Below, in pieces: positions 12,267 to 26,805 of a stretch of 32,479 nucleotides of DNA; within the stretch, counting starts at the first letter, position 1; every line of letters starts with the position of its first letter. The stretch lies in assembly GCA_020445785.1 (NCBI GenBank), contig JAGRFZ010000061.1, positions 1 through 32,479 of the forward strand, in the 5' to 3' direction. The position numbers and the translations under genes are program-made. Source of the DNA: Rhodocyclaceae bacterium. Lineage in GTDB: Bacteria > Pseudomonadota > Gammaproteobacteria > Burkholderiales > Rhodocyclaceae. The notes beneath the pieces were generated by a model that saw only the letters and a list, made by a program, of their open reading frames with translations, was not told where the DNA came from and made no database searches.

Positions 12267-13649
<1,383 letters not shown>

Positions 13650-13680
13650 CGCGCCGTCCGCTCGATTCGATGCGTCGATT

Positions 13681-13709
13681 TTGCCAGAGGGCGCGCCGCT
13701 CAATACAAT
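13681..13709 (+). promoter_or_regulatory. Sigma-70 promoter of mobB, positioned for a leaderless transcript
   Basis: TTGCCA (13681-13686, 5 of 6 to the -35 consensus), exactly 17 bp, then TACAAT (13704-13709, 5 of 6 to the -10). The mobB ATG begins at 13717, seven bases after the -10, where transcription normally starts. There is no Shine-Dalgarno sequence between promoter and ATG. Confidence 0.7.
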
Positions 13710-13716
13710 CCGCGCC

Positions 13717-14235
13717 ATGAAGATCCTCGGAATCGCAGGCTATTCGGGCTCCGGCAAGACGACCCTGATCGAGGCATTGATCCCGCTATTGAGCCTGCAC
13801 GGCCTGGTGGTCTCGGTGATCAAGCGCGCCCATCACGGCTTCGACGTGGACAAGCCGGGCAAGGACTCCTGGCGCCATCGCCAAGCCGGCGCGCAGGAAG
13901 TGATGCTGGCGAGCCCGGAGCGGTGGGTGCTGATGCGCGAGTTGCGCCGCGATCCGGAAGAGAACCTCGACAACCTGCTGTCGCGCCTGTCGCCCTGCGA
14001 TCTGGTGCTGGTGGAAGGCTTCAAGGCGGCACCGATTCCCAAGATCGAGGTCTGGCGACCGGCCAACGGCAAGCCGGCGCTGCATCCGGAAATTCCCTCG
14101 GTGGTCGCAGTCGCAACCGACGGCGACTGTGCCGCGGCGCTGCCGATCCTCGACCTGAACGACACCGAGGCCGTTGCCCGCTTCATCGTCGACGCATTGC
14201 CCGGTCTGCCGCAGGCCGGCCGGGGCAGTCGCTGA
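13717..14235 (+). CDS. mobB: MobB, molybdopterin-guanine dinucleotide biosynthesis adaptor
   Basis: A 172-residue P-loop GTP-binding protein that assists MobA in attaching GMP to molybdopterin to form the bis-MGD cofactor of DMSO-reductase-family enzymes such as nitrate reductase and formate dehydrogenase. Walker A is GYSGSGKTT at residues 8-16. The MobB signatures KRAHHGFDVDKPGKDSWRHR (about 37-56) and LVLVEGFKAAPIPKIEVWR (about 94-112) are present, and the length is typical. The ATG immediately follows a sigma-70 -10 element, so the mRNA is probably leaderless. Its stop codon abuts the stop codon of convergent dusA with no base between them. No mobA or moe gene is in the window. Confidence 0.95.
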   Translation: MKILGIAGYSGSGKTTLIEALIPLLSLHGLVVSVIKRAHHGFDVDKPGKDSWRHRQAGAQEVMLASPERWVLMRELRRDPEENLDNLLSRLSPCDLVLVEGFKAAPIPKIEVWRPANGKPALHPEIPSVVAVATDGDCAAALPILDLNDTEAVARFIVDALPGLPQAGRGSR

Positions 14236-15758: not shown

Positions 15759-16457
15759 ATGCGCAAATCCCTGCTCGCAGTGTCGGTGCTCGCGGCCATG
15801 CCGTTGCTGAGCGCCACCGCCCACGCAGAGGAATCCCCGATCAGCGCCAATGTCGCACTGGTTTCCGACTACCAGTACCGTGGCTTCTCGCAGACCAGCG
15901 AGAACATGGCGCTGCAAGGCGGCTTCGACTACGCCCACGAGAGCGGCTTTTACGTCGGCACCTGGGGATCGAACGTGTCGTGGCTGTCCGACGGCCGCTC
16001 GGACGTCAGCAGCAGCCTGGAAGTCGACATCTACGGCGGCTACAGCACCGAGATGTCCGGTGTCGGCATCGATGTCGGTCTGCTCCAGTACCTGTATCCG
16101 GGCCACTATCCCGACGGCTACAACAGCGCCGACACGCTGGAAGGCTACGTCGGCGTTTCCTACGGACCGGTCACGCTGAAGGTCTCCCACGCGTTCACCG
16201 ACTTGTTCGGCATCGACGATTCGGACGGTTCCCAGTACTACGACCTGTCCGCATCGCACGACATCGGCGGCATTTCGCTCAGCGCCCATGTCGGCCGCCA
16301 GAAGGTCGAGGGCGGCGGTTCCTACAACGACTGGAGCCTCGGCGCCGGTACCAGCCTGGTCGGTCTCGACTTCGGCCTGACGTACACGGACACCGATGTC
16401 GATGACGCCGATCTGGCCGATCAGCGCCTGATCCTCTCGGTCGGCAAGTCCTTCTGA
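15759..16457 (+). CDS. TorF-family putative porin, first gene of the glnK-amtB operon
   Basis: 232 residues with a classic signal peptide (MRKSLLAVSVLAAMPLLSATAHA, cleavage after residue 23). The mature part is rich in alternating amphipathic strands with Tyr/Gly/Ser, e.g. ANVALVSDYQYRGFSQTSENMALQGGF at about 29-55. That opening motif and the C-terminal Phe (LILSVGKSF) are typical of the TIGR02001/TorF family of outer-membrane beta-barrels. AAGGAGA precedes the ATG by 6 nt. It lies directly downstream of the NtrC/sigma-54 control region and 56 nt upstream of glnK, so it should be induced by nitrogen starvation. The co-transcription suggests an outer-membrane channel for ammonium or another small nitrogen compound (inference). 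Substrate not established from sequence. Confidence 0.88.
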   Translation: MRKSLLAVSVLAAMPLLSATAHAEESPISANVALVSDYQYRGFSQTSENMALQGGFDYAHESGFYVGTWGSNVSWLSDGRSDVSSSLEVDIYGGYSTEMSGVGIDVGLLQYLYPGHYPDGYNSADTLEGYVGVSYGPVTLKVSHAFTDLFGIDDSDGSQYYDLSASHDIGGISLSAHVGRQKVEGGGSYNDWSLGAGTSLVGLDFGLTYTDTDVDDADLADQRLILSVGKSF

Positions 16458-16465
16458 GGCCATGA

Positions 16466-16852
<387 letters not shown>

Positions 16853-16883
16853 GCGAAGCCTTTTTCGAGTAAAGGGGAATCCA

Positions 16884-18194
16884 ATGAAGAAACTTCTACC
16901 CATGCTGCTGGCTGCTTCCGCAGTCGCGCTACCCGGGATGGCCTGGGCGCAGGAGGCCGCCATCGAAGTCAACAAGGGCGATGTCGCGTGGATGATGACG
17001 TCCACGCTACTGGTGCTGTTCATGGCCCTGCCCGGCTTGGCGCTGTTCTACGGCGGCCTGGTGCGCTCCAAGAACATGCTGTCGGTGCTGATGCAGGTGA
17101 TGGTGGTGTTCTCGCTGATCAGCGTGTTGTGGGCCGTCTATGGCTACAGCCTGGCGTTCGGCGGCGAAGGCACGATCATCGCCGGCCTCGACAAGATGTT
17201 CCTGAAGGGCATCACGATGGACTCGCTGGCCGACACCTTCACCGACAACGTGAAGCTGCCCGAGTACCTGTTCATCGCCTTCCAGTGCACGTTTGCGGGC
17301 ATCACCTGCGCCCTGATCGTCGGCTCCTTCGCCGAGCGGATCAAGTTCAGTGCGGTGCTGCTGTTCTGCGTCATCTGGTTCACCTTCTGCTACCTGCCGA
17401 TCGCCCACATGGTGTGGGGTACCGGTGGCTACCTGCTCGACGCCGGCGCCCTCGACTTCGCGGGCGGCACCGTGGTGCACATCAACGCCGGCGTCGCCGG
17501 TCTGGTCGGTGCCTATGTGCTCGGACCGCGGATCGGCTACGGCAAGGAGTCGATGGCCCCGCATTCGCTGACCCTGACCATGGTCGGTGCCTCGATGCTG
17601 TGGGTCGGCTGGTTCGGCTTCAATGCCGGTTCCAACCTGGAAGCGACCTCCGGTGCGACCCTGGCCTTCATCAACACCTTGCTCGCCACCGCCGCCGCAA
17701 CCCTCGGCTGGACCATCGCCGAAGCCATCTTCAAGGGCAAGCCCTCGATGCTGGGTGCCGCCTCGGGTGCCGTCGCCGGCCTGGTCGCGATCACCCCGGC
17801 CTGCGGTAGCGTCGGCCCGATGGGCGCGATCGTGCTGGGCCTGCTCGCCGGCTTCATCTGCCTGTGGGGTGTCAGCGGCCTCAAGCGCATCCTCGGTGCC
17901 GACGACTCGCTCGACGTGTTCGGCGTGCATGGTGTCGGCGGCATCCTCGGTGCGATCCTGACCGGCGTGTTCACCGCCCCGTCGCTCGGCGGTACCGGCG
18001 GCGACGACTTCTCGATCGCCAGTCAGGTCTGGATCCAGACCGAGGGCGTGCTCATCACCATCGCCTGGTCCGCGATCGTCGCCTTCATCGCCTACAAGCT
18101 GGTCGATGTCGTGATCGGTCTGCGGGTGCCGGAGGACGAGGAGCGCGAAGGCCTGGACATCACCTCCCACGGCGAAACCGCCTACGTACGCTGA
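16884..18194 (+). CDS. amtB: AmtB ammonium transporter
   Basis: Inner-membrane ammonium channel of 436 residues. A cleavable signal peptide (cleavage after AWA, about residue 22) is followed by 11 predicted membrane helices. The pore twin histidines are visible as His199 (TVVHINAG) and His349 (FGVHGVGG). The Amt signature region near 195-215 and the phenylalanine-gate segments (FIAFQCTFAGITCALIVG) are conserved. The cytoplasmic tail (VPEDEEREGLDITSHGE) is the GlnK-binding region. AAAGGGG precedes the ATG. It is the last gene of the porin-glnK-amtB operon, followed by an intrinsic terminator. Confidence 0.97.
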   Translation: MKKLLPMLLAASAVALPGMAWAQEAAIEVNKGDVAWMMTSTLLVLFMALPGLALFYGGLVRSKNMLSVLMQVMVVFSLISVLWAVYGYSLAFGGEGTIIAGLDKMFLKGITMDSLADTFTDNVKLPEYLFIAFQCTFAGITCALIVGSFAERIKFSAVLLFCVIWFTFCYLPIAHMVWGTGGYLLDAGALDFAGGTVVHINAGVAGLVGAYVLGPRIGYGKESMAPHSLTLTMVGASMLWVGWFGFNAGSNLEATSGATLAFINTLLATAAATLGWTIAEAIFKGKPSMLGAASGAVAGLVAITPACGSVGPMGAIVLGLLAGFICLWGVSGLKRILGADDSLDVFGVHGVGGILGAILTGVFTAPSLGGTGGDDFSIASQVWIQTEGVLITIAWSAIVAFIAYKLVDVVIGLRVPEDEEREGLDITSHGETAYVR

Positions 18195-18222
18195 TCCCAC
18201 CCTCCTCTTGGCGGTTGGCGCG

Positions 18223-18252
18223 CGGGGCACCTTCGGGTGCCCCGTTTTTCTT
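18223..18252 (+). terminator. Intrinsic terminator after amtB
   Basis: A 9-bp GC-rich stem (CGGGGCACC / GGTGCCCCG) closed by a TTCG tetraloop and followed by GTTTTTCTT. This is a textbook rho-independent terminator on the plus strand. The T-run is on one side only, so it does not serve the convergent purU gene. Confidence 0.95.
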
Positions 18253-18293
18253 CCGAATCGGCCGAGGTCACGGCGCCGATCGGGCCGGTGCGA

Positions 18294-19169
18294 TCAGCGG
18301 AAGACGACCGTCTTGTTTCCGTGCACCAGCACCCGGTCCTCGAGGTGGTATCGCAGGCCGCGGGCCAGCACCGCCTTTTCGATGTCCTTGCCGTAGCGCA
18401 CCATGTCCTCGACCGAATCGGAATGATCGATGCGGATCACGTCCTGCTCGACGATCGGCCCCTGGTCGAGTTCGGCGGTGACGTAATGGCAGGTGGCCCC
18501 GATCAGCTTGACGCCTTTCTCCCAGGCCTGGTGGTAGGGCTTGGCGCCGACGAAACTCGGCAGGAAGCTGTGGTGGATGTTGATGATGCGGCCGGGATAG
18601 GCCGCGCACAGTTCCGGTGACAGGATCTGCATGTAGCGCGCCAGCACCATGGTGTCGCCGCGCACCTCTTCGAAGATGCGCTGCACTTCGGCGTAGGCCC
18701 GCAGTTTGTTGTCCCGGCTCACCGGCACGTGATGGAACGGAATGCCGTGCCATTCGACGAAGCCGCGGAAGGTGTCGTGGTTCGAGATCACGCACGGGAT
18801 CTCGATGTCGAGTTCCTTCGATTGCCAGCGGGCCAGCAGGTCGTAGAGGCAGTGCTCCTGTTTCGACACCATCACCACGACCCGCTTCTTGACCGCGCTG
18901 TCGGTGATCTTCCAGTCCATCTCCAGTTCGGCGGCGATCGGCTGGAAGCGCTCGCGGAACTCGGTCAGCATGAACGGCAGGGAATCCGCGCGAATCTCGA
19001 TGCGCATGAAGTAGCGCCCGACCGCCTCACCCTCGCGCGGGGGCTCCGCGTGCAGCGCAGTCTCGAGGATCCAGCCGTGGTGCTCGGCGATGAAGCCGGA
19101 GACGCGGGCGACGATACCCACCCGGTCCGGGCACGACGCCGACAGCGTGTAGAACCGTTGGTGATGCAT
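18294..19169 (-). CDS. purU: PurU, formyltetrahydrofolate deformylase
   Basis: Hydrolyses 10-formyl-THF to THF and formate, balancing one-carbon pools and supplying formate to PurT. 291 residues. An N-terminal ACT domain (about 5-90, starting FYTLSASCPDRVGIVARVSGFIAEHHG) precedes the formyltransferase-fold catalytic domain. Catalytic residues are visible: Asn in CVISNHDTFR, His in NIHHSFLPSFVGAKPYHQA (about 207-225), and Asp in ELDQGPIVEQDVIRIDH. I start at ATG 19169, 4 nt after the thrH stop; an ATG at 19193 would overlap thrH and adds residues not typical of the family. No strong Shine-Dalgarno is seen, so coupling to thrH translation is likely. Confidence 0.94.
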   Translation of the reverse strand: MHHQRFYTLSASCPDRVGIVARVSGFIAEHHGWILETALHAEPPREGEAVGRYFMRIEIRADSLPFMLTEFRERFQPIAAELEMDWKITDSAVKKRVVVMVSKQEHCLYDLLARWQSKELDIEIPCVISNHDTFRGFVEWHGIPFHHVPVSRDNKLRAYAEVQRIFEEVRGDTMVLARYMQILSPELCAAYPGRIINIHHSFLPSFVGAKPYHQAWEKGVKLIGATCHYVTAELDQGPIVEQDVIRIDHSDSVEDMVRYGKDIEKAVLARGLRYHLEDRVLVHGNKTVVFR

Positions 19170-19173
19170 GGCG

Positions 19174-19788
19174 TCAGCCGTCGATGGCGGCAAAGGCGCG
19201 GTCGATCTCCTGCCGCAGGGCGTCGTAGTCGCGGGTCACCGGATACTGCGGAAATTCGCGGATCACGTTCTCGGGCGGACGGAACAGGATGCCGCCGTGG
19301 GCCTCGCCCAGCATCGCCGTGTCATTGTAGGAATCGCCGGCGGCGACCACCTGGAAGTTCAGTTCCTTGAAACGCCGCACCGCCTCGCGCTTCTGATCGG
19401 GCATGCGCAGATGGTAGTTCACGACGACTCCGTCGGCGTCGGCCTCGAGGCTGTGGCAGAACAGGGTCGGCCAGGCCAGTTGGCGCATCAGCGGCTTGGC
19501 GAACTCGTAGAAGGTGTCGGACAGGATCACCACCTGGTATTGCTCGCGAAGGCCGTCGAGGAAAGCTCTGGCGCCGGGCATCGGCGCCAGCGTGCCGATG
19601 ACCTGCTGGATGTCGTCGAGGCCGTGGCGATGCTTCGCCAGGATGTCGAGCCGGTAGCGCATCAGGGTGTCGTAGTCGGGCTCGTCGCGAGTGGTCCGGC
19701 GCAATTCGTCGATGCCGGTCTTGTTGGCGAATTCGATCCAGATCTCCGGAACGAGGACCCCTTCGAGGTCGAGACAGACGATTTGCAC
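19174..19788 (-). CDS. thrH: ThrH, bifunctional phosphoserine phosphatase / homoserine phosphotransferase
   Basis: 204-residue HAD-superfamily enzyme that dephosphorylates phosphoserine and can transfer the phosphate to homoserine. HAD motif I reads CLDLEGVLVPE with Asp7 as nucleophile and Glu9 where most HAD enzymes have Asp, a ThrH hallmark. Motif II is VVILSDTFYEF, motif III uses the Lys in MPDQKREAV, and motif IV is AAGDSYNDTAML. The start codon is GTG at 19788 with AGGAAG about 8 nt upstream. It forms a two-gene unit with purU, linking serine/one-carbon metabolism, which makes sense physiologically since serine feeds the folate pool. Confidence 0.93.
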   Translation of the reverse strand: MQIVCLDLEGVLVPEIWIEFANKTGIDELRRTTRDEPDYDTLMRYRLDILAKHRHGLDDIQQVIGTLAPMPGARAFLDGLREQYQVVILSDTFYEFAKPLMRQLAWPTLFCHSLEADADGVVVNYHLRMPDQKREAVRRFKELNFQVVAAGDSYNDTAMLGEAHGGILFRPPENVIREFPQYPVTRDYDALRQEIDRAFAAIDG

Positions 19789-19821
19789 GGCAGGCTTCCT
19801 GTAGGCGCGGGAAAACCCTGA

Positions 19822-19827
19822 ATGATA
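19822..19827 (-). promoter_or_regulatory. Candidate -10 element of thrH-purU
   Basis: Minus strand TATCAT (5 of 6 to consensus) in the context GCTATCATT, which would start transcription near 19815, 27 nt before the GTG. No convincing -35 is visible. Confidence 0.3.
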
Positions 19828-19842
19828 GCGTCAAACGGGGGT

Positions 19843-19866
19843 CCCCGGCCTTTTCGGCCGGCGACC
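19843..19866 (-). terminator. Weak hairpin after the tyrR-like gene
   Basis: On the minus strand CCGGCC-GAAAA-GGCCGG forms a 6-bp GC stem right after the regulator stop codon. Only CGTTTG follows, with no proper T-run, so any termination would be partial or rho-assisted. Confidence 0.4.
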
Positions 19867-19870
19867 GGGG

Positions 19871-21388
19871 CTAGCCGCGGCCGATGCCGTAGCGGCGCAG
19901 ACGGGCTGCGATCGCCGAATGCGAGGCGCCCAGCCGTGCCGCGAGCTGGCGGCTGGACGGAAAGCGCGGGTAGAGTCGGCGCAACAGGTCTGCCTCGAAA
20001 CGGGCCACCGCCCCGCCCAGGGTATCGATCTCGTCGAGTGGCTCGCCGTCCGGCGCGGCCGGCGAATCGGCGAGCTCGAGATCCTCCGCATCGAGCACGC
20101 TTCGCTCGCTCATGGTCACCGCGCGAAACACCGCATTCTGCAACTGGCGCACGTTGCCGGGCCAGGGATTGGCCTTCAGCGCAGCGCGCGCCGCGGCCGA
20201 AAGCCGGATCTCGCCCCGGCCGGTCTGGGCGCAGGCCCGGGCGAGAAAATGCTCGGCCAGTGCGACGATGTCCTGGCGCCGCTCGCGCAGCGGCGGTACG
20301 TGCAGGCCGAGCACGTTGAGCCGGAACAGCAGGTCCTGGCGAAACGTACCCTCGGCCACCATCTGCTCGAGGGCACGGTGGGTGGCGCTGATCACCCGCA
20401 CGTCCACCCGCTGCTCGCGCTCGCCGCCGACGCGCCGAAAGCTGCCGTCATTGAGGAAGCGCAGCAACTTGGCCTGCAGATAGGGGGACATCTCACCGAC
20501 CTCGTCGAGAAACACGGTACCGCCGTCCGCCATCTCCAGCAGACCCGGCTTGCCGCCCTTGAGCGCACCGCTGAAGGCGCCCGGGGCGTAGCCGAACAGC
20601 TCGCTCTCGGCCAGGCTCTCGGGCATCGCGGCGCAGTTCAGCGCGAAGAAGGGCATCCCGCGCCGCCGGCTGCCGGCATGACAGGCGTGCGCCAGCAATT
20701 CCTTTCCGGTCCCGGTCTCGCCGGTGATCAAGAGCGGGGCGTCGACCTGCGCCATCCGCGCCGCGCGCCGGCGCACCGCGAGAATCTCGGTCGAGCGACC
20801 GAGCACCGCCTCGAAGCCGCCGGCGTCGTAGTTTTGCAGCGCCGAAAGACGCCGCCCGATTCGTTGCGGCGCGTGCAGGGTCAGCACCGCGCCGGCACGG
20901 TCGGCGAGCGGCAAGGTTTCCACCAGGAACGGCTCGCCACGCAGGCGGACTTCGGTGACGCCGGACTGCAGCCGCGCCAGGCCCTCGATCGGAACCACCT
21001 CGCCGAACAGCTCGGACAGGGAGCGCCCGAACAAGGCCTCCTCGGCGCACCCGGCGGCAGTTGCGGCGGCGGCGTTGGCGACCACCACCCGCTGCTCCCC
21101 ATCCACTGCCAGGATCGGGTCGGCCTGGGACGCCAGCAGAGCCTCCAGATAGCGCGCGCGGCGCACGCCCGGCAGCATCGCCACCGGCTCCGCCGAGCGC
21201 ACGTCGTCCACCGCCAGCAGATGCTCGCGCAGACGGGCGAAACCGGGCTCCGCGAGCGCCGGGACGTCGAGGAACAGATGGGGCGGCTCGACTTCGACCG
21301 CGGTCAGATCGAGGCCCTGGCGCGAGACCACGGCGAGAATCTCGTGGGCGATCCCGACCCGATCGGTGAAAAGGACATCGACGCGCAT
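19871..21388 (-). CDS. TyrR/PhhR-like sigma-54-type regulator (ACT-PAS-AAA+-HTH), probable activator of dadA
   Basis: 505 residues with the TyrR layout. An N-terminal ACT domain (about 1-75, MRVDVLFTDRVGIAHEILAV) is the amino-acid sensor. A PAS domain spans about 80-175. The AAA+ domain (about 190-420) has Walker A GETGTGKE near 223-230 and Walker B TVFLDEVGEM. A TyrR-type helix-turn-helix ends the protein (SSRQLAARLGASHSAIAARLRRYG). The sigma-54-contact loop reads GAFSGA (270-275), a conservative change from GAFTGA, whereas E. coli TyrR has lost it. The ATG at 21388 matches the family start, but no Shine-Dalgarno exists; instead a 35-bp palindrome ends 1 bp before the ATG. Divergent from dadA, whose promoter is sigma-54 type, so it is the obvious activator and an autoregulator. 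The amino-acid ligand is unknown. Confidence 0.9.
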   Translation of the reverse strand: MRVDVLFTDRVGIAHEILAVVSRQGLDLTAVEVEPPHLFLDVPALAEPGFARLREHLLAVDDVRSAEPVAMLPGVRRARYLEALLASQADPILAVDGEQRVVVANAAAATAAGCAEEALFGRSLSELFGEVVPIEGLARLQSGVTEVRLRGEPFLVETLPLADRAGAVLTLHAPQRIGRRLSALQNYDAGGFEAVLGRSTEILAVRRRAARMAQVDAPLLITGETGTGKELLAHACHAGSRRRGMPFFALNCAAMPESLAESELFGYAPGAFSGALKGGKPGLLEMADGGTVFLDEVGEMSPYLQAKLLRFLNDGSFRRVGGEREQRVDVRVISATHRALEQMVAEGTFRQDLLFRLNVLGLHVPPLRERRQDIVALAEHFLARACAQTGRGEIRLSAAARAALKANPWPGNVRQLQNAVFRAVTMSERSVLDAEDLELADSPAAPDGEPLDEIDTLGGAVARFEADLLRRLYPRFPSSRQLAARLGASHSAIAARLRRYGIGRG

Positions 21389-21389
21389 C

Positions 21390-21424
21390 GTATGGATTTC
21401 AATACGGCGTATTGAAATCCATAC
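21390..21424. promoter_or_regulatory. 35-bp perfect palindrome: paired operators O1 and O2
   Basis: Arms GTATGGATTTCAATAC (21390-21405) and its exact reverse complement (21409-21424), separated by GGC. Each 16-bp arm is itself a near-dyad of form GTATNGANNTCNATAC, so this is best read as two operator copies with centres 19 bp apart. It lies between the regulator's ATG (21388) and a possible minus-strand promoter with a TTTACA -35, the place for autorepression. Confidence 0.8.
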
Positions 21425-21490
21425 ATAACACGTACTCGATTGTAAATACAGCGGTTTCGTTCCGAAAAAGGCGATCGGACGACGCCATTC

Positions 21491-21506
21491 GTATGGATAT
21501 CGATAC
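21491..21506. promoter_or_regulatory. Third operator copy O3
   Basis: GTATGGATATCGATAC is identical to the O1 arm at 14 of 16 positions and is palindromic except at one base pair. Its centre lies about 98 bp upstream of the predicted dadA start, a normal enhancer distance for sigma-54 activation. Confidence 0.75.
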
Positions 21507-21539
21507 GGACGACCCCGTCCGGCGCCCGAAAAGTTTCCA

Positions 21540-21552
21540 TAACCATCTGATT
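21540..21552. promoter_or_regulatory. IHF-like site between O3 and the dadA promoter
   Basis: TAACCATCTGATT matches the IHF consensus YAANNNNTTGATW with one mismatch and sits between the enhancer and the -24/-12 element, where IHF usually assists looping. Supported by position more than by sequence. Confidence 0.4.
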
Positions 21553-21570
21553 TACAGTGATTTTTGCCGT

Positions 21571-21585
21571 TGGCACGGGGTTTGC
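21571..21585 (+). promoter_or_regulatory. Sigma-54 promoter of dadA-ridA-symporter
   Basis: TGGCACGGGGTTTGC: a full consensus -24/-12 element with GG and GC separated by 10 bp. Transcription would start near 21597, about 50 nt before the dadA ATG. Confidence 0.9.
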
Positions 21586-21646
21586 GAACCCGCCCTGGCA
21601 TGTGGCCGGGATGCGGCTGCGGAAATCTTCCCCAAGGAGAAGGACG

Positions 21647-22957
21647 ATGCATGTACTGATACTCGGCAGCGGCGTAATCGGCACGACGATGGCCTACTAC
21701 ATGGCCCGCGACGGCCACCAGGTGACGGTCGTCGATCGCCAGCCCGGTCCCGCCCTGGAAACCAGCTTCGCCAACGCCGGCGAAGTTTCACCCGGCTACT
21801 CGGCACCGTGGGCCGGCCCCGGGGTGCCACTGAAGGCGATCAAGTGGCTGCTGATGCACAATAGCCCGCTGGTGATCAAGCCGATGCTCGATCCGGCGAT
21901 GTGGCGCTGGGGCCTGGCGATGCTGGCGAACTGCACCGCCGCCCGCTATCGCGTCAACAAGAGCCGGATGGTGCGGCTGGCCGAATACAGTCGCGACTGC
22001 CTACGCCAACTGCGCGCCGAAACCGGCATTCGTTACGACGAACGCAGCCAGGGAACACTGCAACTGTTCCGCACCCAGAAGCAGCTCGACGGCGTCGGCA
22101 AGGATGTCGAGATCCTCGAGGACTTCGGCGTGCCCTACCAGGTCCTCGACCGGCCGGGCTATCTCGAACACGAGCCGGCGCTCGCCGACGTCCAGGAGAA
22201 ATTCGTCGGCGCCCTGCGCCTGCCCGGCGACGAGACCGGCGACTGCTACAAGTTCACCAGCGAGATCGCCGCGATGGCTGCCGAGCTGGGCGTCGACTTC
22301 CGCTTCGGCGTGTCGATCGACGCCATCGAGTACGCCGTCGACCGCATCAGCGGCGTACGCACCAGTGCCGGCCGCCTCGCCGCGGACCACTACGTGCTGG
22401 CCCTCGGCAGCTACTCGCCACTGCTCGCCAGGCCGCTGGGCATCGACCTGCCGATCTACCCGGTCAAGGGATTCTCGATCACGGTGCCGATCACCGATGC
22501 CGAACGGGCGCCCCAGTCGACCATCATGGACGAGACCCACAAGGTGGCCGTGACCCGTCTCGGCGACCGCATCCGGGTCGGCGGCACGGCGCAGCTCTCC
22601 GGCTACGACCTGCAACTGGAGGCGGGCCGGCGTCGCACCCTGGAATTCGTCGTCCAGGACCTCTTTCCCCGTGGCGGCGACGTCGGACGCGCCGAATTCT
22701 GGACCGGCCTGCGGCCGATGACGCCCGACGGCACGCCGATCATCGGCGACAGCCCGTATTCCAACCTGTCGCTCTGCACCGGCCACGGCACCCTCGGCTG
22801 GACCATGGCCGCCGGCACCGGGCGGCTGATGAGCGACCTGGTCAGCGGCCGACGACCCGAGATCGACACCGAAGGCCTGGCGCTGTCGCGCTATCGCCGC
22901 ACCGTGAGCAAACCGACCCACACCCAAGGAGAAGCCATCCAATGCAAAGCATCCTGA
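21647..22957 (+). CDS. dadA: DadA, D-amino acid dehydrogenase
   Basis: 436-residue FAD-dependent quinone-linked dehydrogenase that oxidises D-amino acids (typically D-alanine) to imino acids, which become keto acids and ammonia. The N-terminal dinucleotide fold is [25 protein letters not shown] (about 7-31). The DadA motif [19 protein letters not shown], the central [12 protein letters not shown], and the C-terminal [30 protein letters not shown] are all present. AAGGAGAAGG precedes the ATG at 21647. It overlaps ridA by 16 nt. It is membrane-peripheral by family knowledge. Driven by a sigma-54 promoter with upstream operators for the divergent TyrR-like protein. No racemase (dadX) is present in the unit. 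Confidence 0.95.
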
Positions 22958-23322
22958 CCCCGAATGCACCCAGCGCGATCGGGCCCTACAGCCAGGCGAC
23001 GGCGAGCGACGATGGCTGGCTGTTCACCTCCGGCCAGATCCCGCTCGACGCCAACGGCGAGCGCCGCGACGGCGACATCGCGGCCCAGACCGAGCAGGTC
23101 TTCGACAACCTCGAGGCGATCCTCGGCGCCGGCGGCAGTTCGCTTGCCGAGGTGCTCAAGGTCACGGTCTTCATGACCGACCTGGGCGAGTTCGCGACGA
23201 TGAACCAGATATTCGCCCGGCGCTTCGGCGAACACCGGCCAGCACGCTCGACCGTGCAGGTGGCTGCATTGCCGACCGGGGCCCGGGTCGAGATCGAGGC
23301 GATCGCCCGCCGCCGGCGCTGA
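22942..23322 (+). CDS. ridA: RidA-family enamine/imine deaminase
   Basis: 126-residue trimeric RidA (YjgF/YER057c/UK114) protein that hydrolyses reactive enamine/imine intermediates to keto acids and ammonia. The conserved residues are visible: SAIGPYSQA near 11-19, Arg102 in [11 protein letters not shown], and Glu117 in ARVEIEA, the same 15-residue spacing as Arg105/Glu120 of E. coli RidA. It starts inside the end of dadA (16-nt overlap) with AAGGAG upstream, so the two are translated together. This fits directly: DadA releases imines and RidA clears them. Whether it is RidA proper or an Rid1-3 subgroup member cannot be settled by eye. Confidence 0.93.
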
Positions 23323-23358
23323 ACCGACAGACCAACAGAAAAAGGAGAGAAGAGGGAC

Positions 23359-24738
23359 ATGGAGACACTCACCACGATCGTCACCGCGATCAACAATTTC
23401 GTCTGGGGACCGCCGATGCTGGTGCTGATCCTCGGCACCGGCCTATACCTGCAGTTCCGCCTCAGGCTGATGCCGATCACCCACATCGGCATGGGCTTTC
23501 GTCTGGTCTGGCGTGGCCGCAGGCCCGACGCCGACGCCAGCGGCGACATCAGCCCCTACGCCGCGCTGATGACCGCGCTGGCCGCAACGGTCGGCACCGG
23601 CAATATCGCCGGCGTCGCCACGGCGATCGCGATCGGCGGCCCCGGCGCCCTGTTCTGGATGTGGGTCACCGCATTGGTCGGCATGGCCACCAAGTACGGG
23701 GAAGTGGTGCTGGCGGTGCATTACCGCGAGCGCGGTGGCGAGGGCGGTCATGTCGGCGGCCCGATGTACGCGATCAAGAACGGTCTCGGCCGCCACTGGC
23801 GCTGGCTCGGTGCCGCCTTCGCGATCTTCGGTGGCCTTGCCGGTTTCGGCATCGGCAACATGGTCCAGTCCAACAGCATCGCCGGTGCACTCGAGGCAAG
23901 CTTCGGCATCGACGCCTGGCTGACCGGCGCGGTGCTCACGGTGCTCACCGGATTCGTGCTGCTCGGCGGCGTCAAGCGCATCGGCGCGGTCGCCGAGAAG
24001 CTGGTGCCGTTCATGTGCGTGGCGTACGTCCTCGCCGCGCTGGCGGTGCTCGCCGTCTACGCCAGCGAGATCCCACATGCCTTCGCGCTGGTCTTCCAGT
24101 ATGCCTTCAGCCCGGCCGCGGCGACCGGGGGCTTTGCCGGCGCGGCGGTGCTGATGGCGCTGCGTTTCGGCGTCGCCCGCGGCATCTTCTCGAACGAGGC
24201 CGGCCTCGGTACCGCCGGCATCGCCCAGGCCGCCGGTCGTAGCAAGAACCCGGTCGAATCGGGGCTGATCGGCATGATGGGCACCTTCATCGACACCCTG
24301 ATCGTGTGCACCATGACCGGCCTGGTGCTGATCGTCACCGGTGCGTGGTCGAGCGGCGTCCAGGGCGCGGCGCTGACCGCCAACGCCTTCGCCACCGCGT
24401 TCCCCGGCATCGGCGGCCATTTCCTGGCCATCGCCCTGGCGGTGTTCGCCTTCACCACCATCCTCGGCTGGGCCTACTACGGCGAGCGCTGCTGGGAATA
24501 CCTGCTCGGGCGCTCGGTCGACAAGCCGTACCGCGTGGTGTGGACCCTGTTCGTGATGGTCGGTGCGGTGACCCAACTCGACTTCGTCTGGCTGGTCGCC
24601 GACACCCTCAATGCGTTCATGGCCTTCCCCAACCTGGTGGCCCTGTTGCTGCTCTCGCCGGTGATCTCACGGCTCACCCGGGAGTATTTCGAAGAAGGTC
24701 GGGTGAGCCCGACGCTGGCGAGCGCCCGCGGCACCTGA
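23359..24738 (+). CDS. AGCS-family alanine/glycine:cation symporter
   Basis: 459-residue inner-membrane Na+ (or H+) coupled amino-acid symporter of the AGCS family (AgcS/DagA type). About 10-11 hydrophobic helices are visible. Family motifs include LMTALAATVGTGNIAGVATAIAIGGPGALFWMW (about 71-103), GGPMYAIKNGLG (about 133-144), and GIFSNEAGLGTAGIAQAA (about 275-292). AAGGAGAG lies before the ATG, 36 nt after ridA. As third gene of the dadA unit it probably imports the D-amino acid (D-/L-alanine or glycine) that DadA oxidises. Substrate stereo-preference is inferred from context. Confidence 0.93.
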   Translation: METLTTIVTAINNFVWGPPMLVLILGTGLYLQFRLRLMPITHIGMGFRLVWRGRRPDADASGDISPYAALMTALAATVGTGNIAGVATAIAIGGPGALFWMWVTALVGMATKYGEVVLAVHYRERGGEGGHVGGPMYAIKNGLGRHWRWLGAAFAIFGGLAGFGIGNMVQSNSIAGALEASFGIDAWLTGAVLTVLTGFVLLGGVKRIGAVAEKLVPFMCVAYVLAALAVLAVYASEIPHAFALVFQYAFSPAAATGGFAGAAVLMALRFGVARGIFSNEAGLGTAGIAQAAGRSKNPVESGLIGMMGTFIDTLIVCTMTGLVLIVTGAWSSGVQGAALTANAFATAFPGIGGHFLAIALAVFAFTTILGWAYYGERCWEYLLGRSVDKPYRVVWTLFVMVGAVTQLDFVWLVADTLNAFMAFPNLVALLLLSPVISRLTREYFEEGRVSPTLASARGT

Positions 24739-25030
24739 GACTTCACCGAGGAGTCCGCGTCCCTTCGACGCATGATGCGGGCGACGCCACGGCGCCGCCC
24801 GTGTCGCGTTCGTCGCCGGCGGCTGCTCGCGATCGAACGGCGCGGCGCGCATCTCACGCGGCGCCCGATGCCCGCGGGGCGTACAATCTGGATAACAGCG
24901 AAGGCGTGACGAGACAGTGATCGCCGCGCCCTCGGGCACGGCGCAGCGACAGGCCGGCCCCGCGATGCGGGCATGCGCAAGAGGCCGTCGACGTGCCCCT
25001 CACGACACCTTGTCGATCCAGGAGCAAATC
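24739..25030. other. 292-bp gene-free stretch
   Basis: Between the symporter stop and the next small ORF. It contains GC-rich imperfect repeats but no poly-T terminator for the dad unit. A possible -10 (TACAAT, 24882-24887) lacks a -35. An ATG at 24917 is in frame with the following ORF, but the upstream part reads as random low-complexity residues. Confidence 0.4.
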
Positions 25031-25234
25031 GTGGCCGAATCAACCAGCGACCCCGCGTGGACACGCGAACGGACAGAGACCGAACTGGCGGCGCGCATGT
25101 CCCAGAGAAACGATCTCAAAATCAAACTGGACCACTTCGTCCAGACTCGTCAGGACACCACCTCGGTCGGTCACGAGCTCGAAGAAGTCGAAGCCCATAT
25201 CGCGCGGCTGCAACAAGAACTGGCCGCGCTCTGA
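25031..25234 (+). CDS. Small hypothetical coiled-coil protein
   Basis: 67 residues starting at GTG 25031, chosen because GGAG lies 6 nt upstream (25021-25024). An in-frame ATG at 24917 would add 38 residues of Arg/Ala-rich sequence with no family look. The protein is highly charged and helical: RERTETELAARMSQRNDLKIKLD, then VGHELEEVEAHIARLQQELAAL at the C terminus with leucine heptads. It has no signal peptide, membrane segment or Cys. I do not recognise a family. Codon usage fits the genome (G/C-rich third positions). It is monocistronic, with the dad unit upstream on the same strand and the PhoX-like gene convergent. It ends just before a branched inverted-repeat structure. Probably a real small gene, not certain. 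Confidence 0.55.
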   Translation: MAESTSDPAWTRERTETELAARMSQRNDLKIKLDHFVQTRQDTTSVGHELEEVEAHIARLQQELAAL

Positions 25235-25235
25235 T

Positions 25236-25304
25236 CGCTGCCGCGCATGCGGCCGGCATCGCTCGAACGAATCGATGCCGGCCCGCTTGCGGGCCGTGGC
25301 AGCG
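25236..25304 (+). repeat. Branched inverted-repeat element after the small ORF
   Basis: Outer arms CGCTGCC (25236-25242) and GGCAGCG (25298-25304) enclose two inner hairpins: GCCGGCATCG (25252-25261) with CGATGCCGGC (25273-25282), and GGCCCGC (25280-25286) with GCGGGCC (25289-25295). The inner hairpins share three bases, so the full forms compete. No T-run follows. It could be a rho-independent-like 3' end, an mRNA-stabilising fold, or an intergenic repeat element. Confidence 0.55.
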
Positions 25305-25386
25305 CGAAGCCGGGAGACGATGGACACGCCCCCAGCCCGCGTCCAGTGCGCTCGCCGGCACCTGACGGCGGGCCGGGCACTTCGCC

Positions 25387-26805
25387 CTACTTCAGCTGAC
25401 CCTTGCGCTGACCGAGGGTCACCTGCCACAGGGCATCGTTGCCGCTGGCCGGATGCTGAATCGAAATGATCGCGCGATTCGGCACGTTCGGGTCGAAGGT
25501 CAGACCGGTAGGCTCGGCGCCCGGTACGCCGTGGGTCAGCCAGCGTCCGATGCGATCGGCGACCAGATCGCCGTCGCTGTCGACCGCCTGCCAGACGTCC
25601 GCCGAGGCCGGCTCCTGATCTTCGATGACGTACAGGTGGCCGTCGGCGTCGATGGCCAGATTGTCCGGGTTGTTGAATACCGCGCCGACGGCTTCACCGG
25701 TGGCGACATCGCGTGTCGAACGATCGACGAACACCTTCACGTCGGCGGTGTCGCCCTGCAACGCCACCGCATAGACGGCGTCCTCACTGGTGGCGGTGAA
25801 GAACAGGACTTCGCGGCCATTGCGCAGATCGATGACGACGTCCTCGGGCCGGCCGTACGGCGTGCCATGAACCTCGTCCGCCGCAGCGCGCCCCGCGGTT
25901 CCGGTCGGCACCACGCCGAGACCGGCGTCGGCGTAGATGAACGGGTCCACCAGGGTCAGGGCGTTGCCGACGGCATCGGTCAGCGCCACCCAGCGCGCCG
26001 CACCGGTGCGGCGCGTCGCCGCGTTGGCGGCCGAATCCCAGTTCTCGTCCGGCTGGCCATCGAAGGCATCGACGGCGAGGACGAAGGTCTGGCCGACGCC
26101 GAGATCACCGGGCGTCAGGGGCACGTACTTGTAGATCGAGCCGGAGTTGTTCTCGTCGACCACGTACATCGCGCCGGCCGCATCGAAACGCACCCCTTCG
26201 TGTGCGATCGCCGGCACCCTGTCCAGCCAGCGTACACCGGCGGAGGCCGCGTCGGACGCGAAGGGATTGGTGATTTCGAACAGCCGCCCGCCGGTCGTCT
26301 CCTCGCCCGTGACGATGGTGTCGAAGGGCGTGTAGGTGGCCGGATCGAGACGGGTGAATTCGTCGTTCAGGGGATCGAAGCTGGCCGGGTCGGGGTTGCG
26401 GGCCGCATTGCCGCCGCCGATGCCGTGCATCAGCGTGACGAAATTTCCGGTATCCACGTCGTAGCGGAAGAGGCCGGCGCCGTTGCCGACCTCGGCTGGA
26501 ATGAAAATCGAGCGACCGGCATCCGGATAGGCGCCCCGGGCCGAGTTTTCCGGCGCCGAGAAGGCCACCATATCCCAATTGCCGAAAGTCGATGGCAGAC
26601 CACGCGCGGTCAGCGTGTCGCGATCGATGATCTTGTGCTGCTTGTAGCCCGGCGGCAGATCGAAGGGCCTCGTCTCTTCGACGTCGATTGCCACCGGTTC
26701 CTTCGAGGCCACGAGTGCAGTGCCGGTCGACAGTGGCGGTACGGCCCATGCCGAGACACCGGACAACACCGCGGTGACGGCGACGAAGAGATGGGAGAAC
26801 TTCAT
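25387..26805 (-). CDS. Exported PhoX/DUF839-family beta-propeller protein
   Basis: 472 residues. A Sec-type signal (MKFSHLFVAVTAVLSGVSAWA, cleavage about 21) leads a protein with PhoX-family landmarks: FDTIVTGEETTGGRLFEI (about 161-178), IAHEGVRFDAAGAMYVVDENNSGSIYKYVPL (about 200-230), GRPEDVVIDLRNGREVLFFTAT, FNNPDNLAIDADGHLYVIEDQ and GAEPTGLTFDP. These Glu/Asp/Asn-rich loops are the metal-binding positions of the propeller. Canonical PhoX uses a Tat signal and has Cys before the Glu-Glu pair as an iron ligand; here the signal is Sec-like and the position is Gly167. So it may be an esterase-like or non-phosphatase paralogue rather than a true PhoX. GGAGG precedes the ATG. Transcribed alone, with no Pho box recognised upstream. 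Confidence 0.85.
   Translation of the reverse strand: MKFSHLFVAVTAVLSGVSAWAVPPLSTGTALVASKEPVAIDVEETRPFDLPPGYKQHKIIDRDTLTARGLPSTFGNWDMVAFSAPENSARGAYPDAGRSIFIPAEVGNGAGLFRYDVDTGNFVTLMHGIGGGNAARNPDPASFDPLNDEFTRLDPATYTPFDTIVTGEETTGGRLFEITNPFASDAASAGVRWLDRVPAIAHEGVRFDAAGAMYVVDENNSGSIYKYVPLTPGDLGVGQTFVLAVDAFDGQPDENWDSAANAATRRTGAARWVALTDAVGNALTLVDPFIYADAGLGVVPTGTAGRAAADEVHGTPYGRPEDVVIDLRNGREVLFFTATSEDAVYAVALQGDTADVKVFVDRSTRDVATGEAVGAVFNNPDNLAIDADGHLYVIEDQEPASADVWQAVDSDGDLVADRIGRWLTHGVPGAEPTGLTFDPNVPNRAIISIQHPASGNDALWQVTLGQRKGQLK

Follow-up and report, generated by a model that had tools for sequence, protein, structure and literature searches.

A predicted sigma-54 switch for D-amino-acid catabolism under a TyrR-like activator, and its conserved three-box layout, in a Rhodocyclaceae bacterium

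Introduction

Which protein turns on the breakdown of D-alanine, and through which kind of promoter, is the question raised by a locus of a Rhodocyclaceae bacterium (assembly GCA_020445785.1, contig JAGRFZ010000061.1) in which the gene of a TyrR-like regulator is divergent from a dadA-ridA-symporter operon. D-alanine catabolism is usually described as being under the control of Lrp. A first-pass annotation of the whole analysed stretch of 32,479 nucleotides, here called the window, had instead proposed a sigma-54 switch for D-amino-acid catabolism that is run by the TyrR-like protein. In our follow-up, this predicted switch proved well supported: operator motif and promoter element are conserved, and the genome holds an rpoN gene. 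However, the annotation had missed a precedent, the TyrR/dadA pair of Azospirillum brasilense (PMC6375630), and two of its more specific proposals, on the nature of the operator and on the division of labour between its copies, were not supported.

Methods

Relatives of the locus were drawn from 121 and 399 genomes around the species of the window and from 398 genomes across the phylum. Further relatives were taken from a named genome collection (80 loci kept) and from plasmid records (77 matching, 5 of them used as dadA loci). Twenty intergenic regions, that of the window included, were compared, in which the gene divergent from the regulator is dadA (18) or an AGCS gene (2). The training set consisted of the 19 regions other than the window (17 dadA, 2 AGCS); L015, L027–L030 and other loci without a divergent dadA or AGCS gene lie outside these 19 training loci.

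A free-running motif search ended in an AT-rich pattern that was weak and had an excess of sites, and a search that imposed three sites per locus but left the spacings free was used instead. It was restarted 600 times for the real set and 80 times for each shuffled set (n = 10). In the layout scan, each box of a pair had to score at least 4 bits. A looser threshold on the summed pair gave 13 loci with a spacing of 24 bp, which were partial overlaps of 19-bp sites, and 3 were left at 4 bits per box. Counts over 139 loci leave out L145–L151, which overlap other loci, whereas the count over 145 loci includes them. The phylogenetic tree was calculated from 65 of the 90 regulator proteins; the 25 left out were near copies, one with an odd end, and L113.

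Results

The target operon lies on the plus strand and its three genes score well above the cut-offs of their family models. It starts with dadA (21647..22957), which encodes a D-amino acid dehydrogenase (NF001933, 674.5 bits, cut-off 383), continues with ridA (22942..23322) for a Rid-family enamine/imine deaminase (TIGR00004, 148.6 bits, cut-off 106) and ends with the gene of an AGCS-family sodium:alanine/glycine symporter (23359..24738; TIGR00835, 499 bits, cut-off 273). The end of dadA and the start of ridA share 16 bp (22942–22957), which suggests translational coupling between the two genes.

The divergent gene (19871..21388, minus strand) encodes a TyrR-family, sigma-54-type activator of 505 aa with an ACT-PAS region, an AAA+ domain with a GAFSGA loop and a TyrR-type HTH. 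Its TyrR/PhhR-type HTH (TIGR04381, HTH_TypR) scored 73.8 bits over a cut-off of 30 and is the sole match to this model in the genome, which is 89% complete. Against the full-length TyrR model (NF008085 equivalog), which it matches from end to end, the protein reached 445.7 bits and thus stayed under the equivalog cut-off of 576; we therefore regard it as a member of the TyrR family and not as TyrR itself. Residues 1–161 match the N-terminal structure of E. coli TyrR (2jhe; 46.2 bits, E 2.7e-11) and residues 454–504 match the structure 1g2h. Among the Pfam matches are PAS and Sigma54_activat (215 bits), with the ACT domain not listed.

The sigma-54 contact loop, which the first-pass annotation had given as GAFSGA, was read again with the same letters. 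Together with the HTH above its cut-off and the match to 2jhe, it upholds the assignment of the regulator to the TyrR family with a sigma-54-type loop. A serine in place of the loop threonine is listed for an experimentally validated sigma-54 activator, BkdR of B. subtilis, in the available text of PMC3162934. The locus combines two features that are expected with a sigma-54 enhancer-binding protein: an AAA+ domain with a GAFTGA-type loop, and a target with a -24/-12 element and upstream sites. As for IHF, the best IhfA match in the genome is a fragment ended by a contig edge, which scored 118.4 bits against a cut-off of 120.25, and three weaker matches scored 56–63 bits. Downstream of the regulator and on the same strand, genes for ThrH (phosphoserine phosphatase/homoserine phosphotransferase) and PurU (formyltetrahydrofolate deformylase) occupy 18294–19788. 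The window contains a second sigma-54-type response regulator at 12267–13718, which is NtrC/AtoC-like and scored below all curated cut-offs.

Between regulator and dadA, we re-found all the parts that had been annotated: three boxes, a 35-bp palindrome, an IHF-like site and a consensus -24/-12 element before dadA-ridA-symporter. The core GTATNGANNTCNATAC occurs exactly at 21390–21405 (O1), 21409–21424 (O2) and 21491–21506 (O3). At up to two mismatches, the window has 4 matches to this core, against a mean of 0.19 and a maximum of 2 in shuffled copies (n = 100); three exact matches in the window are far beyond chance. In the whole 4.58-Mb assembly, O1, O2 and O3 are the only exact matches, with one-mismatch matches at four further places, and a reversed-pattern control of the core search returned a single match in the same assembly. 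O1 is the exact reverse complement of O2, and the two form a joint 35-bp palindrome (21390–21424) around a single unpaired centre base. The rest of the assembly contains no second O1/O2-like pair at up to 3 mismatches over 20 letters, and the layout is missing at the one-mismatch core sites elsewhere in the genome (L004–L007). On these grounds, a wider regulon in this genome was rejected. A search of the genome for plain TGTA-N10-TACA was uninformative, with 5 sites versus 26 in the control.

The operator had been described as 16 bp long, which holds for the exact matches at all three sites; as TyrR boxes, however, the sites span 18 bp. Under a motif learned without the window, the boxes, to which no strand is assigned, score 21.6 bits for O1 (CGTATGGATTTCAATACG, 21389..21406), 23.0 bits for O2 (CGTATTGAAATCCATACA, 21408..21425) and 21.3 bits for O3 (CGTATGGATATCGATACG, 21490..21507). 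Measured from start to start, O1 and O2 are 19 bp apart, O2 and O3 82 bp, and O3 and the -24 element 81 bp. The sigma-54 element TGGCACGGGGTTTGC (21571..21585, plus strand) matches the consensus. Taken alone, such a match carries little weight, since chance would supply about 2.2 per window at up to one mismatch; what counts is the conserved position. With +1 set about 12 nt past the GC of the -12 element (near 21597), the boxes are centred at -199.5 (O1), -180.5 (O2) and -98.5 (O3), the last in agreement with the annotated value of about -98. The IHF-like site TAACCATCTGATT (21540..21552, minus strand) is one mismatch from YAANNNNTTGATW and has its centre at about -51. A consensus scan of 21300–21700 detected no sigma-70-like promoter, which says little because the chance expectation for this stretch is only 0.4.

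On the regulator side, O1 directly adjoins the ATG (21386–21388), so that 21386–21425 leaves no room for a Shine-Dalgarno sequence. The regulator message may perhaps be leaderless, as a Shine-Dalgarno sequence does not fit before this ATG.

The arrangement recurs in relatives. The motif learned from the 19 loci with the window held out, TGTATCGAATTCGATACA, carries 17.0 bits, compared with 6.5–7.0 bits in 10 shuffled sets that were given fewer restarts. Under this motif the window sites score 21.3–23.0 bits, and in shuffles of the window region (n = 500) the best, second and third sites never rose above 16.4, 8.8 and 5.1 bits. The first-pass annotation had suggested searching upstream of orthologous loci for the motif together with a -24/-12 element, and both are present in 19/19 related intergenic regions. 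The spacing between O1 and O2 is 19 bp in 20/20 regions. O3 follows O2 at 80–84 bp in 14 of the 20, at 69–71 bp in four, at 115 bp in one (L024) and at 33 bp in one (L025). A sigma-54 element lies downstream of O3 in every one of the 20 regions, with 10/10 letters in 15, 9 in four and 8 in one.

The distances from O3 to the -24 element cluster at 68–73, 79–83 and 91–93 bp, about one turn apart. We do not claim helical phasing: the periodicity measure was not specific to 10.5 bp, and the O2–O3 distances, taken over distinct values, had no evident phase (R 0.30).

A match to the IHF consensus with at most one mismatch stands between O3 and the -24 element in 12/20 regions (6 exact), against a mean of 1.1 and a maximum of 5 in mononucleotide shuffles (n = 300 runs). 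Ten of the 12 IHF-like sites are centred at -48 to -52 and two at -62. The four Azospirillum loci are without such a site, their best match having 3 mismatches, and control stretches between O2 and O3 have sites with at most one mismatch in 5/20 regions, none of them exact (shuffle mean 0.8). IHF is thus likely but not certain to take part.

Contrary to the annotation, which had given the regulator its own operator distinct from the TyrR box, the sites follow the established TyrR pattern. The rule given for a TyrR box in the available part of PMC4374768 is 18 bp with an invariant G-N14-C. All three window boxes fit this frame, and the G at position 2 has a frequency of 0.97 in the held-out motif. 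Moreover, a motif found independently before gcvH in the GcsR group (13 Pseudomonas loci, three sites imposed) has the same 18-bp frame, and one gcvH box in L032, L034 and L035 is letter-identical to O3 of the dadA locus L021. Judged by its letters, the window operator is a TyrR/GcsR box and not a kind of its own.

The likeness to the GcsR group extends to the layout. Its pair is spaced at 19 bp in 13/13 loci, the third box follows 69–85 bp on, and 12/13 loci have a sigma-54 element with at least 9 letters. In P. aeruginosa, GcsR binds three 18-bp sites, as seen by EMSA, before gcvH2, whose promoter has a predicted RpoN site, according to the available text of PMC4894688; the available part of PMC9159945 gives the gcvH2 promoter as the single well-supported GcsR site in P. 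aeruginosa. Like the window regulator, GcsR of P. aeruginosa PAO1 (Sarwar et al. 2016, PMC4894688) is a TyrR-like activator of the sigma-54 type, and its three 18-bp sites, which lie upstream of an RpoN site, probably serve a single operon. GcsR differs in that it controls glycine cleavage, in that its gene is on the same strand as its target and not divergent, and in that it falls into a separate clade (100/100) in a comparison made with Pseudomonas relatives of the PAO1 protein. No gcvH or gcvP match was found within 16001–26000 of the window. With no adjacent glycine cleavage genes and a place in another clade, the window regulator does not qualify as a GcsR orthologue.

Other branches of the family depart further from this layout. 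The PhhR proteins of Pseudomonas and Halomonas belong to the TyrR family, have a divergent gene and share the 18-bp box frame. They differ from the window regulator by a GAFEGA-type loop, by two boxes 73–84 bp apart and by the lack of a good -24/-12 match. In detail, with two boxes imposed on 14 loci, the distance between the boxes was 82–84 bp in 13 loci and 73 bp in the remaining one, and a sigma-54 element with at least 9 letters was found in 0/14 phhA intergenic regions. The PhhR of L107 and of the Halomonas-group loci have GAFEGA-type loops, though the annotation of the P. aeruginosa protein calls it sigma-54-dependent. TyrR of E. coli and E. cloacae has the same ACT-PAS-AAA+-HTH architecture and the 18-bp G-N14-C box, whereas it is without a GAFTGA-type loop, concerns aromatic amino acids and uses the core TGTAAA versus GTATNGA.

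In the recognition helix, the window and GcsR groups have R and the others K, and G at box position 7 has a frequency of 0.89 with R (33 loci) versus 0.36 with K (14). We do not claim a rule from this, as the K-bearing PhhR group also favours G at position 7 (0.80).

What do O1 and O2 do? The first-pass annotation had let O3 activate dadA and O1/O2 repress the regulator. In such a division, O3 alone would be the dadA enhancer and the pair would serve the repression of the regulator's own gene. Some observations fit: O1 abuts the regulator ATG in the window and lies 1–21 bp from the start codon in all 16 regions outside Azospirillum (37–155 bp in the 4 Azospirillum regions), O3 is the top-scoring box in 9/20 regions, and TyrR of E. 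cloacae represses a divergent gene through a box over its promoter, as far as described in the available part of PMC4374768. Against it, the 19-bp pair also stands before gcvH (13/13) and before alr-dadA-regulator operons (L029, L030, L152–L154), where it is not placed at a separate regulator start. In two Undibacterium genomes, the 2+1 unit and a -24/-12 element precede an alr-like gene, dadA and the regulator on one strand (identities of the alr-like genes with the alr query: 28% and 27%), and in two genomes of another class of the phylum (L115, L144) the 2+1 unit is located between the regulator and alr-dadA. In addition, a prediction written beforehand, that three genomes with dadA on the regulator strand carry the layout further upstream, held in 3/3; two of them have an alr-like match alongside and two a possible extra box 19 bp on.

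From the gcvH and alr-dadA cases it follows that the 19-bp pair travels with the catabolic promoter. O1, O2 and O3 look like one enhancer, because the pair, O3 and the -24/-12 element are kept together at promoters away from a regulator start. We consider the split between an activating O3 and a repressing O1/O2 unlikely, and self-limitation through O1/O2 in the window a plausible side effect, since the pair covers the regulator start.

The 35-bp palindrome could also be thought to act at the level of RNA, as a hairpin in the regulator leader that causes attenuation or blocks translation. Just ahead of the AUG, the window leader (21380–21432, minus strand) would indeed fold, with -27.2 kcal/mol (z -7.3). 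However, two adjacent palindromic boxes fold by construction. In the 19 relatives, the predicted folding of the O1–O2 pair is weak (0 to -11.7 kcal/mol), whereas its spacing on the DNA does not vary; palindromic letters number 12–26 of 37 in these relatives versus 34 in the window. A hairpin function is therefore extremely improbable, and the hairpin was rejected as the conserved element.

The spacing of the pair is specific, and so is the class of regulator that accompanies it. Across 139 loci, the full layout with its pair at 19 bp was found in 47, a pair at 24 bp in 3, and pairs at other spacings of 17–32 bp in none. A scan of 145 loci gave the layout in 47, two of which are duplicates of one place, and first-order random copies gave 0 in 3 x 145. 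Sorted by the loop of the regulator, the layout is present with GAF[T/S] loops in 47/60 loci, with E/D loops in 0/26 and with absent or other loops in 0/34. This link is a strong association and not proof, because the motif was derived from T/S loci, a sigma-54 element is a condition of the scan and the genomes are not independent of one another.

Thirteen of the 60 T/S-loop loci were without the layout in the stretch first scanned. L110–L112 have it beyond that stretch, L025 and L113 have the pair with a third box at 33 bp, and the GcsR loci L037 and L040 reveal it only with their own GcsR motif. No layout was found in the T/S-loop loci L054, L088, L114, L116, L124 and L138, nor in larger stretches around three T/S-loop regulators without the layout (L155–L157).

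These counts bear on whether dadA is read from a sigma-70 promoter, as with E. coli TyrR, so that the match to TGGCAC-N5-TTGC would be due to chance. About two chance sigma-54 elements per window are indeed expected at up to one mismatch, and the E. coli protein, which is without the loop, works with sigma-70 according to the available text of PMC3162934. Yet the sigma-54 element follows O3 in 20/20 regions, the window regulator has a GAFSGA loop, and the E/D-loop and loop-less classes show the layout in 0/60. A sigma-70 promoter is thus very improbable here, and we retain the sigma-54 element as the predicted dadA promoter.

Discussion

We propose, with a probability of about 0.85, that the locus is a local sigma-54 switch in which the TyrR-like regulator would act on one O1–O3 enhancer and turn on dadA-ridA-symporter. 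The proposal rests on sequence, that is on the parts, their layout, the conservation of this layout and its association with the loop type. The ACT-PAS region of the regulator would sense alanine, with D-alanine the most likely form. By analogy with GcsR and activators of this type, three dimers on O1, O2 and O3 may build one AAA+ hexamer. IHF would bend the DNA at about -51, and the GAFSGA loop would remodel the sigma-54 polymerase at TGGCAC-N5-TTGC. With dadA-ridA-symporter switched on, D-alanine would be imported and oxidised, and RidA would clear imine intermediates. Binding to O1/O2 would probably also limit the expression of the regulator, because the two boxes cover its translation start, but this would not be the reason for the conservation of the pair.

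With regard to the substrate, the operon could be of the dguRABC kind and serve mainly D-glutamate or D-glutamine rather than D-alanine. In P. aeruginosa, dguRABC is reported (He et al. 2014) to comprise an activator gene adjoining genes for a D-amino-acid dehydrogenase, a RidA-like protein and transport, with D-glutamate as the substrate. By this description, the gene set is alike and the substrate differs. The transport gene in the window, however, is that of an AGCS sodium:alanine symporter, alr lies beside dadA in the relatives L101, L115, L144 and Undibacterium, and an AGCS gene is the first target in L011 and L031. We consider a main role in D-glutamate or D-glutamine use distinctly unlikely and favour D-alanine as the substrate of the switch.

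In the 65-protein tree, the window regulator belongs to a clade of 16 rows (14 dadA, 2 AGCS) with a support of 100/100. The GcsR proteins form a separate clade (100/100), and the PhhR/TyrR side is likewise distinct (100/98). Every row of the window clade that has a name is betaproteobacterial. Four Azospirillum plasmid proteins fall outside it, and the divergent pairing with dadA is therefore not the property of one clade; on this tree, which does not include Sp7, 4 changes are required to explain the dadA-divergent label. The joins at the base of the tree are uncertain, as the outgroup is distant and sits on a long branch.

The closest described system is that of A. brasilense Sp7 (Jijon-Moreno et al. 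2019, PMC6375630). According to the available text of this account, tyrR is divergent to dadA and the region between them contains three boxes and a -12/-24 element; in a tyrR mutant, dadA mRNA is absent and growth on D-alanine as a carbon source is lost. The authors left open, in that text, whether TyrR binds D-alanine and whether it acts from enhancer sites. The window has this A. brasilense-type layout of divergent dadA, 2+1 boxes and -12/-24 element, and the two systems are alike in the divergent dadA, the sigma-54-type activator and the placement of two boxes upstream of tyrR with a third by dadA. They differ in that A. brasilense belongs to another class and in that its boxes were found with enterobacterial TyrR motifs, the consensus being TGTAACG-N4-CTTTACA (PMC6375630). 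The available part of that account does not mention RidA, the symporter, a spacing rule or IHF.

Sigma-54 activation of dadA by a divergent TyrR-like protein is thus essentially published already for A. brasilense, to judge from the available text of PMC6375630. Our additions are the exact spacing geometry and its occurrence in three classes, the reading of O1–O3 as a single enhancer, the association with the loop and the IHF-like site, none of which we met in the literature searched. Our literature search found no account of the spacing rule or of the betaproteobacterial system, although the figures of PMC4894688 and PMC6375630 may show the spacing.

A nutrient-specific sigma-54 switch appears to control the catabolism of D-alanine in Azospirillum and in a range of betaproteobacteria. 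The 19-bp pair with its distant third box is a readable rule: the position of the promoter was predicted from it in three genomes, and it tells TyrR relatives that have a sigma-54-type loop apart from those that lack one. The layout also lends itself to a clear-cut test of the idea that three fixed dimers serve as the template for the activator hexamer.

The genes found under the layout, named from family models, include dadA, AGCS genes, alr-dadA operons and gcvH. In L036, the layout precedes a gene for a permease of the D-serine/D-alanine/glycine type (family-model name) upstream of gcsR. In L127, L139 and L142, TyrR-like regulators with a GAFTSA loop are divergent to methionine gamma-lyase under the layout; the enzyme name comes from a family search for L127 and from a like sequence start for L139 and L142. 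In L149, the layout stands before a gene for a branched-chain amino-acid-binding-type protein, and in L027 (Zoogloeaceae bacterium) and L028 (Denitromonas), at 3273–3988, before that of an Lrp/AsnC-type regulator and not dadA; in both cases the family model scored below its curated cut-off. The gene after this Lrp/AsnC regulator in L027 and L028 we take, from its sequence start, to be diaminopimelate-epimerase-like. Weak boxes of 6–10 bits are among those of L015/L149, L027, L028 and L127.

It is likely, if less so than the switch in the window itself, that TyrR-like activators with a functional GAF[T/S] loop share one portable three-box enhancer. Its elements would be the 19-bp pair, a third box at about 70 or 82 bp and, about 71, 82 or 92 bp beyond that box, a sigma-54 promoter. 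Across alpha-, beta- and gammaproteobacteria, it would be placed before dadA, alr-dadA, AGCS/APC transporters, gcvH, methionine gamma-lyase, a branched-chain amino-acid binding protein and an Lrp-type regulator; where the regulator has lost the loop, it was not seen. If true, the fixed 2+1 geometry would template the assembly of the hexamer, and it could help to find undescribed amino-acid switches.

A relative of the regulator in L113, listed with a single internal TGA, stands divergent from a gene of the indolepyruvate oxidoreductase type, and the boxes there are spaced at 19 and 33 bp.
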